From: Winogradskyella wandonensis
GTDB lineage: Bacteria > Bacteroidota > Bacteroidia > Flavobacteriales > Flavobacteriaceae
DNA length: 64,000 nt
NCBI RefSeq assembly: GCF_004346845.1
Contig: NZ_SMGI01000002.1
Location: forward strand, 806,001-870,000
Direction of reading: 5' to 3'
Part shown: in pieces, positions 58,708 through 64,000 of the stretch
Position numbering within the stretch: position 1 is the first letter of the stretch
Layout of the letters: each line of letters begins with the position of its first letter
Position numbers and translations under genes: made by a program
Notes under the pieces: model-generated
What the model was told of the DNA's origin: nothing
Seen by the model: only the letters and a program-made list of their open reading frames with translations
The model's database searches: none

Positions 58708-59433
58708 TTAAGCGTTGGTTTCTTCCTGAGCGTATTCCGTTTTCAATTCCTCAAATATTTTTTCAATCTCAACATAATTCGGCTGTCCAGATAGTTGCGT
58801 AATGTCATAATCCAAACAAAATTCAATGTCCTTTTGTGACATATAGTGTTCGTGTATTAATTCCTCATTTATTTGCTCTTCAATGTTAATGTAACGTCTT
58901 TCTTCTTCGTCTTGACTTTCTATTAAAAACTTCGCAAAACCATCTTGAATTGCTGATTTTGTTTTTTCTTGAATTTCGTCAGCGAATTTTAATATTTCAG
59001 TGATTTTTTCGTCTACGGTTTCTTGTGCTTTGAAAAAGATATTTCCGTTACTGTGGGCAATATCATTTCTCAAAGAAACAATTTTTTTGTATTTACCAAT
59101 TTGGTCTTTTCTAAGGCCGAAAAATGTAAAAAGTAGAAAAACTCTGCTTTCATTTTCTTCACTAAATGTAAAAGGTGATGAAGCACCAACAAAACAATCT
59201 TTGAAGCCTAAAGTTATCTTGTCGTAATCTTCTTGATGTATTTTCTTGATTTGCCAAACATTAAAATACACGAAACTCATAAACAGCATATGATAAGCCA
59301 TAAATGAAAATTGATACTTTTCATTTGAATAATTACTTTCAAAAGAATCCCACAAAAACTCTATGTATTCTTGCTCTGTTCGGTTTTTAAATCGAATAGG
59401 TAAGTAGTTTAATATTTCGTAAGCTTCCTCCAT
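58708..59433 (-). CDS. HEPN-motif hypothetical protein of the restriction operon
   Basis: 241 residues, almost wholly helical. It contains R122NDIAH127, an Rx4H motif as in HEPN ribonucleases, within the helix IVSLRNDIAHSNGNI, and an acidic C-terminal half (DEEERRYINIEEQINEEL). HEPN proteins are often RNases in toxin-antitoxin and abortive-infection systems. Its ATG shares one base with the stop of the AbiC-like gene (TAATG), so it is the last gene of the hsd operon. Catalytic activity is inference. Confidence 0.65.
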   Translation of the reverse strand: MEEAYEILNYLPIRFKNRTEQEYIEFLWDSFESNYSNEKYQFSFMAYHMLFMSFVYFNVWQIKKIHQEDYDKITLGFKDCFVGASSPFTFSEENESRVFLLFTFFGLRKDQIGKYKKIVSLRNDIAHSNGNIFFKAQETVDEKITEILKFADEIQEKTKSAIQDGFAKFLIESQDEEERRYINIEEQINEELIHEHYMSQKDIEFCLDYDITQLSGQPNYVEIEKIFEELKTEYAQEETNA

Positions 59434-60614
59434 TAGTTATAGTCAATTTCGTAGTTTACTTCTGGGTAATAATCTCGATATTTTATCCCGAAAATACTTT
59501 GAGAAGGAAGGTTTGTAATTAGATTATAATTGGTTATCAGTCTTTTGCTTTTTAATCTTTTATCGAAAAATGGGTCAATTTTATACTTCTTAATTTGAGG
59601 TGATAAATCCCAAACTAAACCTAAATGAGAGATACTGTTAATAAACAGTAAAGACTGTTCAGCAGTTGACAACTGTGCCCTTAAAGTTTTAGCATAAAAG
59701 TATTTTTCTTCTTTATTCAGTTTTTTATGTTCGTTAATAAAAGTATAGGTTTGAAATAAGTGCCTGAAATAATGACCTAATTTATATTGATGACCTCCAT
59801 AGTATTTAATGTAGTTATTTGGGTATTTACTTTTTATTGCTTTCTCAACTACATTTGGATATTCTTCACTTTGAAAATTTGGATTATTCCTCAGTTCTCT
59901 TACAATCTCAAAAGCCTTTATTCTATTTTTTTTGTTAGCTATTTTATGAAGTGATTTCCAGTTTTTGTAATATTTACTTTGCTTAATTGGTTTCATAGAA
60001 AGAAACTCCAATATTGGCTCGTAAAATTCAGGTTTGTATTTATTTGCAAATTGGTCTTTTATGGTTTCTTTTCCTTCAGCACCCACTCCATAAAATATTA
60101 TTAAATAAGGAATGTTAAGTTTTGCCAGAGCTACAGCATCAATTGTTGAGTTGGTTGCAATTAAGGACTCTTTTAGTTTAATTAGATACTCATCTTGATA
60201 AATATGCGACTCCTTCTTCTTTTTGAAAAAGAGAATCATTTCTTGTCTACATTTTAGAAATTGTGAAAATATATCGTGCAATTCTTTTCGACCACTTCTA
60301 GAATCTGTTTCCATTTCCTTAATATTTTCTCTATGCAGTTTGAGTAAATCAAAAAACTTACTTTCAAATCGTTCTTTTGTAGCAAATTTGGTCTGCTCAT
60401 TTAAGGTTAGAATTAATATTAAGAAACCTGCTAAAGAGAAAAAGGTACCAACTACACCACCAATAAAATCACCAACTTGACCAGTTTCTGCCATTAAGGT
60501 TGGTTTGTTCAGTTCATAAGTATATTCTAATGAAAGTTTATGGAAGAAATACCAACTCACATAAATTCCTCCTAGAATACAAGCAATGGACAATATTTTT
60601 AGTAGTAACTTCAT
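59433..60614 (-). CDS. Putative AbiC-like phage abortive-infection membrane protein
   Basis: 393 residues from the ATG at 60614; an ATG four codons earlier is open, but 60614 gives the TAATG overlap with hsdMS. Two N-terminal membrane helices (about 3-23 and 48-71) are followed by FESKFFDLLKLHRENIKEM and a long helical cytoplasmic part with YYGGHQYKLGHYFRHLFQTYTFI. This layout fits the putAbiC family of phage-exclusion proteins. It would add a cell-suicide or replication-arrest layer to the restriction system (inference). Confidence 0.72.
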   Translation of the reverse strand: MKLLLKILSIACILGGIYVSWYFFHKLSLEYTYELNKPTLMAETGQVGDFIGGVVGTFFSLAGFLILILTLNEQTKFATKERFESKFFDLLKLHRENIKEMETDSRSGRKELHDIFSQFLKCRQEMILFFKKKKESHIYQDEYLIKLKESLIATNSTIDAVALAKLNIPYLIIFYGVGAEGKETIKDQFANKYKPEFYEPILEFLSMKPIKQSKYYKNWKSLHKIANKKNRIKAFEIVRELRNNPNFQSEEYPNVVEKAIKSKYPNNYIKYYGGHQYKLGHYFRHLFQTYTFINEHKKLNKEEKYFYAKTLRAQLSTAEQSLLFINSISHLGLVWDLSPQIKKYKIDPFFDKRLKSKRLITNYNLITNLPSQSIFGIKYRDYYPEVNYEIDYN

Positions 60615-63124
60615 TATTCTCCCCAAACTTTTGCAATTCTATTTTTTATTTTTTGTTCAAAAATTTCAATTAGTTCTTTATTAGCATTTACTAATTTCTG
60701 CTCATTTTCAATTCTTGCTACAATTTCATTTTGCGTTTCAATTGGTGGATTCGGAATTGGAATTTTTTTCAAATCTGTAATTGATAGATTTGGTTGCATA
60801 AGTGAACGAGATTGCTCCTCCACATATTTGTAAACTACATCAGAACACAGGTAATGATATATAAAATTTAAATTTGCATTCTCTTTAGGTTTTAAACCTG
60901 CAACTCGTTGGTTCACTAGTGTATTATTCCAAGCTTCCGGAACTACTGCAACCTTAAGACCAGTAGAAATTATTGTACGAGTAAGTGATATAACAAGGTC
61001 ACCTGTGTTTACTAGGTATTTGGAATATTCTTTTAAGTAAGTTTCTGGTAAGCGACTTGAATCATTATCAACAAATTCACGAACACCTACATTTGTTATT
61101 TTTATGCACTTTATAAGGTTTTCTTCTTTGAAATCTGAACTACTAAAACCATAACCACTTATAACTTCTGCTAGAGTATTTAATTCTGCTTTGTCCCAAT
61201 CAGGGTCAATATCAATATTTGGTTTATAATTGTCTACCACCATTTTTGCTCCATCAATTATTTTTTGATAGTCTTCTATTTCGGAAACAATTTCTTCTTG
61301 AATAGATATGGGTGGAAGCGGTATTTTTACACCTTTAATATCTGGATTGTTTATTAATGCAATTCCTGCTGAATTTGATATACTCTTTAGGTCAAATTGC
61401 CTCATAAAGGAAAAGAGATATCTTGGATTCAGTATTTTTTCGTCATTTACGGTAATACCCATACAATTATTGTCAATAAGACAAGGTATTCTTGTAAACC
61501 TTTTTTTGTTTGTTGCTATTGCTGCTCCTCTTTTTGGGAAAACAATAGAGTTAATAGGTAGTAGTGAATATGACGTTTCTTTTATCCAATGTGAAGTTGT
61601 TACAATTTCATTTAAATTTTCTGGTAAGTTCATATCACTTACCTTAACACAAGCAATTTCGCCATCCTCTTGAAACTCTGTTAATACTCGACCATTATCT
61701 ACTTTGATATAATCACCTAATTCTACAATAGGATAACTAGACAATCTAACCTCAATTAATTTATATCTTTCACCACTCAAATTATAATCTCCATTCTTCC
61801 CAATTTCTTTTTTATCTACTGAATGCGCAATTGTGGTATTTTCAAATTCCGTTCCTTGTGTAATAGAATATTTAAATGCTTTTGCGGTTTCAATAGCTTG
61901 CTCCAATTGTCCACCCTTTATTTCTCCTCTTTGTGAACCTAAACTGTAGCCATCATTGTCAATTTTAATAAATAGAATCTCATTACTTTTTTTAGCTAGT
62001 TCTTTGTCCAATAAAATGATTGAAGTTTTTACACCACTGTATGGATTAAAAACGCCAGCAGGTAAACTAACAACTGCATACAAATAGTTTTCAACAAGCA
62101 TTTTTCTTAAATCTTTATAAGCGGTACCACCTTGAAAAATGATACCTTCAGGAACTATTATTCCAGCTCTTCCTTTTGGATTTAAATGCTCTGCGATATA
62201 ATCTACAAAAAGCACTTCACTACGTTTACTATTGATTGTGAATTTTTTATGTGGTCTTATACCGCCTTTCGGACTCATAAAAGGTGGATTTGCTAAAATC
62301 ACATCAAAATTTTCATTCCAACGTTCTTCACTGCTTAATGTGTCATATTCAAAAATGTGTGGTTCAGAAAAACCGTGTAAGTATAAATTAACCAAACTCA
62401 ATCGCACCATATCTGGCGAAATATCATAACCTACAAAGTTTTGTATAAGTTTTTTGCGTTGGTCGGGTGTTAATTCGTTATTGTTTTTCTCTTTTATATA
62501 CTTAAAAGCAGAAATTAAAAAACCAGCAGTTCCACAAGCTGGGTCCATAACAGTATCGGTTTTACTTGGGTCAACAATTGCTACCAAGAAATCAATAATG
62601 TGTCTCGGTGTTCTAAATTGACCTGCATCACCTTGCGAACCCATTACTGAGAGCAAATATTCAAACGCATCACCTAATTTCTCACTATGCGTGTATTCAA
62701 ATTCACCTATTGTTTTTAAAAATAGTTTTAAAGTTTCTGGGTCACGATATGGTAAATATGCATTATTGAAAATATCTCTAAACAATTGAGGAATGTTAGG
62801 ATTCTTTTCCATACTCTCAATAGCTTCCGAATACAAACGCAACATTTCAGATGCGGTTACTTTAGTATCAAAAAGTCTATCCCAACTATAATTTGAAAAA
62901 GGAATTGTGATTTCTTTTTCTTCATCTTTTGGGTCTGGAATTGTATAGTCCGAAAAGAATTTTGCTTTTCCACCTAAATCAATTGCTTCTTTATCCATAT
63001 CAGCCATAAACTTGTAAATTAAGCCTATGGTGATTTGCTCTATTTGAGCTTTTGGGTCAGGAAGTTTACCTACTAAAATGTCTCGGCAGTCGTCAATTCT
63101 TTTTTTTGTTATAGTATCTAACAT
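60614..63124 (-). CDS. Type I restriction-modification methylase-specificity fusion (HsdM-HsdS)
   Basis: 836 residues in one frame. Residues 1 to about 450 are HsdM: N-terminal helical domain, then SAM motif I DPACGTAGFLISAF (194-207) and the adenine methylase motif NPPF (279-282). The rest is HsdS with two target-recognition domains (about 462-640 and 655-836), each followed by a coiled helix (IQEEIVSEIEDYQKIID; IETQNEIVARIENEQKLV). In classical type I systems M and S are separate chains in a 2:1 ratio. No frameshift is needed to read through. It begins 9 bases after hsdR ends. Confidence 0.92.
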   Translation of the reverse strand: MLDTITKKRIDDCRDILVGKLPDPKAQIEQITIGLIYKFMADMDKEAIDLGGKAKFFSDYTIPDPKDEEKEITIPFSNYSWDRLFDTKVTASEMLRLYSEAIESMEKNPNIPQLFRDIFNNAYLPYRDPETLKLFLKTIGEFEYTHSEKLGDAFEYLLSVMGSQGDAGQFRTPRHIIDFLVAIVDPSKTDTVMDPACGTAGFLISAFKYIKEKNNNELTPDQRKKLIQNFVGYDISPDMVRLSLVNLYLHGFSEPHIFEYDTLSSEERWNENFDVILANPPFMSPKGGIRPHKKFTINSKRSEVLFVDYIAEHLNPKGRAGIIVPEGIIFQGGTAYKDLRKMLVENYLYAVVSLPAGVFNPYSGVKTSIILLDKELAKKSNEILFIKIDNDGYSLGSQRGEIKGGQLEQAIETAKAFKYSITQGTEFENTTIAHSVDKKEIGKNGDYNLSGERYKLIEVRLSSYPIVELGDYIKVDNGRVLTEFQEDGEIACVKVSDMNLPENLNEIVTTSHWIKETSYSLLPINSIVFPKRGAAIATNKKRFTRIPCLIDNNCMGITVNDEKILNPRYLFSFMRQFDLKSISNSAGIALINNPDIKGVKIPLPPISIQEEIVSEIEDYQKIIDGAKMVVDNYKPNIDIDPDWDKAELNTLAEVISGYGFSSSDFKEENLIKCIKITNVGVREFVDNDSSRLPETYLKEYSKYLVNTGDLVISLTRTIISTGLKVAVVPEAWNNTLVNQRVAGLKPKENANLNFIYHYLCSDVVYKYVEEQSRSLMQPNLSITDLKKIPIPNPPIETQNEIVARIENEQKLVNANKELIEIFEQKIKNRIAKVWGE

Positions 63125-63133
63125 AAATTTCTT

Positions 63134-64000
63134 TTAAGCAGCAAACTGCTCTAGTTTTATATAATCTTTAATGTACACTGGAATCACTTCACGATATTTT
63201 GTTGCAACTGCCTTAAATTGTGAAATGGTCAATGTAGGATTGGTTTGTAATGCTTGAAAATCTTTCGTTTCTATTATTTTTCTAATGTCTTGGTCAACGA
63301 TATAGGCTTTAAAAAAATATTTCAAAGCTCTAATATTAATGTCATTTTCTTCTGGTGGATAAATAGAAATGAATTTATCAAATTCTTCTTCTAATAATTC
63401 ATCCTTTGATTTGAATTTTGGAATAATACCAAATACCTTTTCTACAACTTCACGAATAGAAACTTTTCTGTCAATTTTGGCTGCTTTTCGCAGTTTTTCT
63501 AAATTGAAATATTCTTCTGGTTTATCAAATATTTCTGCTTGAATATGGCTCACAACGTGTTCCCAATTTCCAAGTTCTACGTTCTTTTTTATGATATCAT
63601 CCATTGCGATTCTGTCTTCGAACTTCTTGAAAAGTTCTCTGTCAATTCGCATTCCTTCATACCCAATTTGTTCTTCATTAACCGTTAAAATTGGGTCTGG
63701 TCTTAAACTGTTGTATTTATCAATATCAATTCCGCCACCACAATTTTCACCTTTTCCGCTTTTAGGTTTTGGTAGTTTTAGTTTTTCGTCATAATCAAAT
63801 TTTTCTTCGAAATATTCGCAATTAGCAAAGAAGTCGAATAGTTTAAATACTTCTTTTTCTTCTTTTATTATTTCTACTTCGTTGAGTTCGTTTTTAAACT
63901 TGTGTGTAAACGTATGTTTACGAGTACCACGACCTTTTATTTGTACAAAATCAGCAGGACTAAATATTGGTCGCATCATACATAAATTAAGTAAATCAGG
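63134..64000 (-). CDS. hsdR: Type I restriction endonuclease HsdR, C-terminal part (runs off the window)
   Basis: The frame is open to base 64000, so the N-terminal nuclease and most of the helicase are outside. The visible part starts in helicase motif VI (NLCMMRPIFSPADFVQIKGRGTRKHTF), then shows the EcoEI-type C-terminal domain (FDYDEKLKLPKPKSG, IDIDKYNSLRPDPIL, about 280 residues). It should translocate DNA and cut it far from the recognition site when the site is unmethylated. It is the first gene of the operon in this view. Confidence 0.9.
   Translation of the reverse strand, partial: PDLLNLCMMRPIFSPADFVQIKGRGTRKHTFTHKFKNELNEVEIIKEEKEVFKLFDFFANCEYFEEKFDYDEKLKLPKPKSGKGENCGGGIDIDKYNSLRPDPILTVNEEQIGYEGMRIDRELFKKFEDRIAMDDIIKKNVELGNWEHVVSHIQAEIFDKPEEYFNLEKLRKAAKIDRKVSIREVVEKVFGIIPKFKSKDELLEEEFDKFISIYPPEENDINIRALKYFFKAYIVDQDIRKIIETKDFQALQTNPTLTISQFKAVATKYREVIPVYIKDYIKLEQFAA

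Follow-up and report, generated by a model that had tools for sequence, protein, structure and literature searches.

A type I restriction operon of Winogradskyella wandonensis with a HEPN-type partner gene and an exchangeable cargo slot

Does the restriction operon at the end of a 64,000-nucleotide stretch of Winogradskyella wandonensis DNA (contig NZ_SMGI01000002.1; the whole stretch is called the window) carry a suicide module, and which of its genes belong to it? Re-derivation of the open reading frames (ORFs) confirmed a minus-strand order of hsdR, a fused hsdMS, the gene of a putAbiC membrane protein and the gene of an RNxxxH (HEPN-type) protein, in an operon that reaches the window end (Table 1), and the 9-base gap and two TAATG overlaps reported in the original prediction were all found. 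That prediction had gone on to propose that the AbiC-like and HEPN proteins form a new back-up suicide module, triggered when restriction fails. Comparison with other genomes divides the operon differently: the HEPN protein is the true partner of restriction and makes up the module with it, whereas the putAbiC gene has no fixed tie to HEPN. It is cargo, held in a slot that separates hsdMS from the HEPN gene and that takes in a changing set of genes, many of them from defence families. Overlaps of the TAATG kind are frequent in bacteria; what stands above chance level is the operon order kept in other phyla, not the overlaps as such.

HEPN homologues keep company with methylase-specificity genes in many genomes. 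A plasmid locus of Paracoccus zhejiangensis (pPZ02; L011) contains hsdR, hsdMS and a HEPN homologue 42% identical to that of the window, with a 4-base overlap and no putAbiC gene. With an alignment of these two HEPN proteins as the query, a scan of 84,980 species genomes found 78 loci by HEPN sequence alone. At 75 of them, hsdM/S homologues lie upstream in the same orientation, accompanied at 65 by hsdR. The three loci without hsdM/S are close to contig ends (starting 12, 24 and 1,023 bases away), and the last of them has an Mrr-like ORF (judged by eye) such as is seen in the slot. Plasmid, phage and viral collections supplied seven more homologues (L011, L015, L094, L131, L168, L169 and L170; 28-44% identity to the window HEPN protein), which also adjoin methylase-specificity genes. 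The HEPN gene follows hsdMS, not hsdR: it comes directly after hsdMS (150 bases or less from the matched start) in 49 of the 78 loci, and in 18 of these the two reading frames overlap by 1 or 4 bases, start codon on stop codon. At two loci (L015:3871-7586 and L131:8935-12688), the gene immediately before HEPN encodes HSDR_N, N6_Mtase and Methylase_S in one chain, with no helicase match, and the methylase-specificity part is therefore the common partner of HEPN. This single-chain architecture is a type IIG-like form.

The 65-row HEPN tree spans 13 phylum-level groups (taken from submitters' titles; four rows fall in no group). HEPN distances track those of HsdR (Mantel r 0.80) and HsdM (0.75) across 47 loci, none of 2000 permutations being as high, although host kinship alone could explain part of this signal; L030 departs from the trend. 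A phylum-wide scan found four genomes besides that of the window, all with hsdMS upstream, three of which are not counted as new (cf. L076, L027 and L078). In 296 genomes of the window's order, the HEPN search returned the window copy only. A single-sequence HEPN scan of viral contigs gave nothing useful, and the distant HEPN protein of L131 was found in none of 198 genomes, in a search run without a positive control.

The HEPN protein of the window has no ATPase domain match in Pfam, PADLOC or NCBIfam, and carries a predicted RNase active-site motif, RNDIAH, whose R, N and H are shared by all 65 full-length sequences compared (the window, 61 of the 78 loci, L011, L015 and L094; the remaining 17 of the 78 were omitted as partial or split). 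This invariance is not an artefact of the search, because the scan patterns covered other parts of the protein; conservation at residues 23-29 and 56-62 is partly due to those patterns. With hsdM/S beside it in 75 of 78 loci and the conserved Rx4H motif of the original prediction borne out, the HEPN gene has neither random neighbours nor a variable motif. Its AF2 model is nearly all helical (pLDDT 92.2, pTM 0.90), and in a VIA alignment against 692 chains, six of the eight best matches were HEPN-type (2hsb, 6.6; 9oij, 6.2; 7bxo, 5.0; 6kcr, 5.0; 5yep, 4.6; 1jog, 4.5), with Z values of 4.5-6.6 that are modest and inside the range about which the tool warns for helical proteins. These six are an archaeal HEPN protein, the prophage protein HepS, a HEPN toxin-antitoxin pair, MtlR, SO_3166 and HI0074. 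HepS, SO_3166 and HI0074 belong to the HEPN group, as does the toxin of 7bxo. MtlR is counted among HEPN proteins in the available text of PMC3710099. Of 35 aligned members, 16 match the Pfam family HEPN_RiboL-PSP (PF18735) with E values no higher than 0.01 (lowest 6.9e-6), and weak PADLOC matches of the window protein were to the CARF-HEPN protein Csx20 (CRISPR-linked; E 6.5e-5) and to Csx1 (0.026). An NCBIfam scan of the window protein gave nothing relevant, a PDB sequence search with the HEPN profile gave no match, and a BFVD fold search gave none at E up to 0.001. At four loci (L054, L080, L083 and L084), the HEPN homologue is split across two ORFs, possibly by inactivation or sequencing error.

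Of the 78 loci, 49 have an empty slot and 26 a filled one, with one to three genes between hsdMS and HEPN and with every gap 60 bases or less in 21 of the 26. Cargo was assigned from Pfam or PADLOC matches, either of the protein itself or of a tested member of its cluster (Table 1); it is weakly matched or without assignment in L020, L025, L051, L061, L084 and the first gene of L092, with L025 clustering with L026, and L051 with L061. On the HEPN tree, filled and empty slots require at least 15 changes over 63 rows, a count made without two rows too close to a contig edge to assess. Within the window's own supported group of four, the slot holds putAbiC in the window and SIR2 in L022 and is empty in L016 and L017, with the HsdR proteins of these three loci 95-99% identical to that of the window (98-99% for L016 and L017). 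Cargo has therefore often been gained, lost or exchanged while both borders stayed constant. PADLOC matches at E up to 1e-3 were obtained for eight of ten chosen cargo proteins versus four of ten flanking genes, and at E up to 1e-20 for six versus two; the cargo proteins were hand-picked cluster representatives, with others omitted, and the flanking genes came from mostly the same loci. This makes defence enrichment of the slot no more than suggestive, and defence genes occur in the flanks as well. Another variable position is found between hsdR and hsdMS, where nine loci (L025, L051, L061, L081, L082, L084, L087, L088 and L091) have in common a gene related by clustering, of which the one member tested is KilA-N; RhuM-like genes beside PrrC-type restriction-modification (R-M) loci are mentioned in the available text of PMC3710099.

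The AbiC-like protein of the window is a clear member of putAbiC (PF16872; 71.7 bits versus a cut-off of 22) and matches AbiP in PADLOC (E 3.8e-7). Two hydrophobic segments (approximately residues 1-25 and 47-73) support its description as a two-helix protein, and its AF2 model (pLDDT 74) has two long helices and no fold match at E up to 0.001. It shares the membrane hairpin and RAQLS block of PF16872 and differs in that the window copy is coupled inside a restriction operon. Besides the window, a putAbiC gene stands between hsdMS and HEPN in only one of the 78 loci (L046). Contexts of putAbiC were compared at 39 loci (33 viral or proviral, four genome loci of the window's genus and two plasmid loci), with flanks of up to 8 kb, shorter at contig ends, and with a setting biased by the share of viral collections; HEPN and hsdM/S are near in only one, L131, where putAbiC converges on the HEPN gene from the opposite strand, and in none of the four genus and two plasmid loci. 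The genus genome G054 had no AbiC ORF above the cut-off, and a single-sequence putAbiC scan of viral contigs gave nothing useful. Company with HsdMS fusions is thus supported for the HEPN gene and unsupported for the AbiC-HEPN pair. The putAbiC protein probably acts as a separate abortive-infection layer.

The core of the window operon is a type I R-M system with matches to HSDR_N_2, ResIII, N6_Mtase and Methylase_S and with HsdM and HsdS in one chain, which carries the methylase motif NPPF and a DPACGTA block. Among full-length homologues from the fetched loci, methylase motifs are present in 62 of 62 HsdM proteins, and HsdR has its Walker A motif in 59 of 59 and its nuclease motif in 57 of 59; such nearly universal motifs indicate that restriction is presumably active and the RNase an addition. 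The hsdMS fusions of L016, L017, L032, L044, L049, L068, L072, L074 and L077 are 627-681 residues long, seemingly too short for two full specificity domains, and others have approximately 800-870, so that single- and double-domain forms seemingly coexist.

Gene order, coupling, conservation of the motif and core enzymes, and cargo exchange were all computed directly, and the reading of them that is favoured, on balance as somewhat probable, is a type I R-M system with a dedicated HEPN-type RNase held silent by HsdMS, plus a cargo slot. It is favoured because of the coupling to the methylase-specificity chain in both architectures and the precedent of PrrC, an anticodon nuclease that its type Ic system keeps silent and that the phage peptide Stp sets free (available text of PMC12707154 and PMC3710099). 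The RNase would be made together with the methylase-specificity chain, and HsdMS would bind it and keep it silent. A phage that disabled or overwhelmed the restriction complex would free the RNase or switch it on, whereupon it would cut RNA and halt growth of the infected cell. Restriction would thus be the first line, the RNase an attached back-up, and the slot gene an exchangeable extra weapon, with putAbiC probably a separate abortive-infection layer in the window. The back-up part of the original prediction survives as the best reading for HEPN, of the PrrC type, and the fixed pair of AbiC and HEPN does not.

Like EcoPrrI with PrrC, the operon has a HEPN-type RNase gene in a type I locus and a proposed back-up upon inhibition of restriction. 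PrrC differs in that its chain also holds an ABC ATPase domain; the window protein lacks such a domain, and its gene follows an hsdMS fusion. In five loci (L023, L024, L041, L089 and L091), PrrC-like AAA_13 proteins are cargo next to HEPN, and L116 has AAA_13 behind hsdMS with no HEPN gene. Calling the concept new was too strong, as R-M-linked HEPN RNases were described in 2013: the available text of PMC3710099 links at least 16 HEPN clades to R-M systems and puts forward the back-up idea. The window family resembles those families in its conserved neighbourhood with R-M genes and its proposed role as a suicide RNase, and matches none of those named there, its best Pfam family being HEPN_RiboL-PSP below cut-off. 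The same text notes HEPN fusions to endonucleases, helicases and ATPases, not methylases; here there is coupling, not fusion, to a methylase-specificity chain, including two loci without a helicase match. A 2026 paper (available text of PMC12839542) reported back-up effectors within BREX loci, where varied nuclease effectors, HEPN among them, are likewise embedded in a core operon; the core there is BREX, and here it is HsdR-HsdMS with one HEPN family in last place and much exchange in the preceding slot. A 2025 review speaks of "R-M guardians" (available text of PMC12707154). Coupling of restriction to a HEPN RNase is thus an idea proposed in 2013, and a literature search, with most subscription papers and preprints outside it, found no description of this HEPN family or of the hsdMS/HEPN slot.

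Several findings weigh against the guardian model. A profile search, which placed the AbiC-like protein securely, left the window HEPN protein at 19.8 bits against HEPN_RiboL-PSP, below the cut-off of 28.4; Foldseek with the HEPN model gave no significant match, the Z values above are modest, and the copies in L054, L080, L083 and L084 look broken. Kinship of hosts may account for some of the distance correlation. In L030:3886-9732, HsdR is 84% and HsdM 78% identical to the window proteins and HEPN just 47%; operon parts are therefore exchangeable, and the HEPN gene was likely exchanged inside a conserved core. Among 395 genomes of the class, HEPN is absent from 12 of 12 other loci with close HsdR, ten of them informative (with an HsdM homologue in the fetched stretch) and two broken or at a contig edge. 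HEPN as an obligatory part of every such core is ruled out by these loci, and the link is thus one-way: HEPN implies HsdMS, and not the reverse. The genes behind hsdMS in HEPN-less cores include DUF6602 (L108), an SMC-like ATPase below Pfam's cut-off (L109; L110 is similar by eye) and AAA_13 (L116). On a conjugative IncF plasmid of Escherichia coli (L014:4406-11954), a related hsdR-hsdMS (HsdR 58%, HsdM 53%) is followed by the anti-phage ATPase TrlF/Ppl, so that the same core has a defence gene behind hsdMS and no HEPN gene; this TrlF occurs at 99% identity or more in 53 plasmid records. DUF6602 was observed in two settings: at L108:4732-5421, in the place of HEPN behind hsdMS in a core with HsdR 96% identical to that of the window, and at the Paracoccus locus, where the annotation places it on the opposite strand, immediately following HEPN.

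The main rival to the guardian model, in itself unlikely, is that HsdMS bound to unmodified foreign DNA activates the HEPN RNase, RNA cutting then being part of ordinary restriction rather than a back-up. The common partner in both architectures is the methylase-specificity chain, the reader of methylation state, which at two loci is part of a single nuclease-methylase-specificity chain without a helicase match, and the HEPN gene follows hsdMS rather than hsdR, all of which would suit such activation; PrrC, the nearest studied case, answers instead to inhibition of restriction (available text of PMC12707154). It is distinctly doubtful that the HEPN-type protein is no toxin and instead belongs to the restriction complex as a structural or RNA-binding component, or trims the mRNA of its own operon. 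Strong conservation over the full length of the protein, also far from the motif (at residues 23-29 and 56-62 partly scan-driven), and the existence of non-catalytic HEPN proteins (available text of PMC3710099) would be consistent with such roles, but the invariance of R, N and H is more than a purely structural role demands, and related HsdR-HsdMS cores exist without the gene.

An addiction system, in which HsdMS would be the antitoxin of a HEPN toxin and would mainly secure inheritance of the operon, with phage defence secondary, is improbable: tight translational coupling fits it, and G+C content below that of the flanks and scattered occurrence (a single one among 296 genomes of the order) suggest transfer, but related cores persist without HEPN, and addiction alone would not predict the recurrent uptake of further genes, many from defence families, into the slot. 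The AbiC-like and HEPN proteins as one two-gene suicide module attached to restriction have in their favour both TAATG overlaps of the window, the same order in the Verrucomicrobia bin L046 and the convergent putAbiC gene adjoining HEPN in L131. This candidate was rejected on the single occurrence among 78 loci, where 49 slots are empty and 25 have other cargo, and on the single occurrence among 39 putAbiC contexts; L016 and L017, near relatives of the window, lack putAbiC, and the chance that the two genes are one module is very slight.

G+C content is approximately 0.29-0.35 across the operon and 0.34-0.40 in both flanks (1-kb steps), a modest difference; a promoter and terminator scan of the operon gave roughly the level of shuffled sequence, and conservation of flanking genes in 60 genomes of the genus was too low to reveal an empty site. 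The putAbiC gene has an alternative start, TTG at 60626.

Table 1. Features of the window operon, and slot cargo at other loci (window positions unless a locus label is given)
Feature	Position or locus	Strand	Remarks
hsdR, C-terminal third	63134-64000	-	288 of 843 aa; cut by window end
hsdR, whole gene	L002:8134-10665		843 aa; HSDR_N_2 and ResIII in full protein
Gap, hsdR stop/hsdMS start	63125-63133	-	9 bases
hsdMS, methylase-specificity fusion	60614-63124	-	836 aa; N6_Mtase 1.7e-57, Methylase_S 1.8e-27 (2 stretches)
TAATG overlap, hsdMS stop/putAbiC start	60612-60616	-	sequence
putAbiC gene in cargo slot	59433-60614	-	393 aa from ATG; PF16872 E 7.1e-20
putAbiC N-terminal membrane hairpin	60399-60614	-	residues 1-72; hydropathy; two long helices in model
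TAATG overlap, putAbiC stop/HEPN start	59431-59435	-	sequence
HEPN-type protein, conserved last operon gene	58708-59433	-	241 aa; hsdM/S context and fold
RNDIAH, predicted RNase active-site motif	59053-59070	-	residues 122-127 (R122, N123, H127)
Slot cargo: AAA_13, PrrC-like	L023, L024, L041, L089, L091		5 loci
Slot cargo: DUF4917	L031, L069, L085		3 loci
Slot cargo: SIR2_2	L018, L022		2 loci
Slot cargo: SIR2 and HerA	L040, L087		2 loci
Slot cargo: Mrr	L028, L055		2 loci
Slot cargo: ABC-3C pair	L026
Slot cargo: Ppl/TrlF-like ATPase	L038
Slot cargo: reverse transcriptase	L082		UG13b group
Slot cargo: PIN protein	L092
Slot cargo: putAbiC	L046		Verrucomicrobia bin
Slot cargo: DEAD helicase	L090
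Slot cargo: GHKL-like ATPase	L079		below Pfam's cut-off

The operon introduces a widespread HEPN-type family, named by none of Pfam, PADLOC and NCBIfam on the window protein, that is nearly always found with one kind of type I system. Silencing of a toxic RNase by a restriction complex has so far been studied mainly with PrrC; if the guardian model is true, this family would supply a small-protein case, with no ATPase of its own. The slot is a practical place to seek unknown defence genes. A wider reading, tentative and rather unlikely, is that HsdR-HsdMS-[slot]-HEPN is a modular immune chassis in which HsdMS would be a common sensor gating both the HEPN RNase and the slot effector; if this were so, an effector inserted and coupled between hsdMS and HEPN would fall under the regulation of the restriction system.

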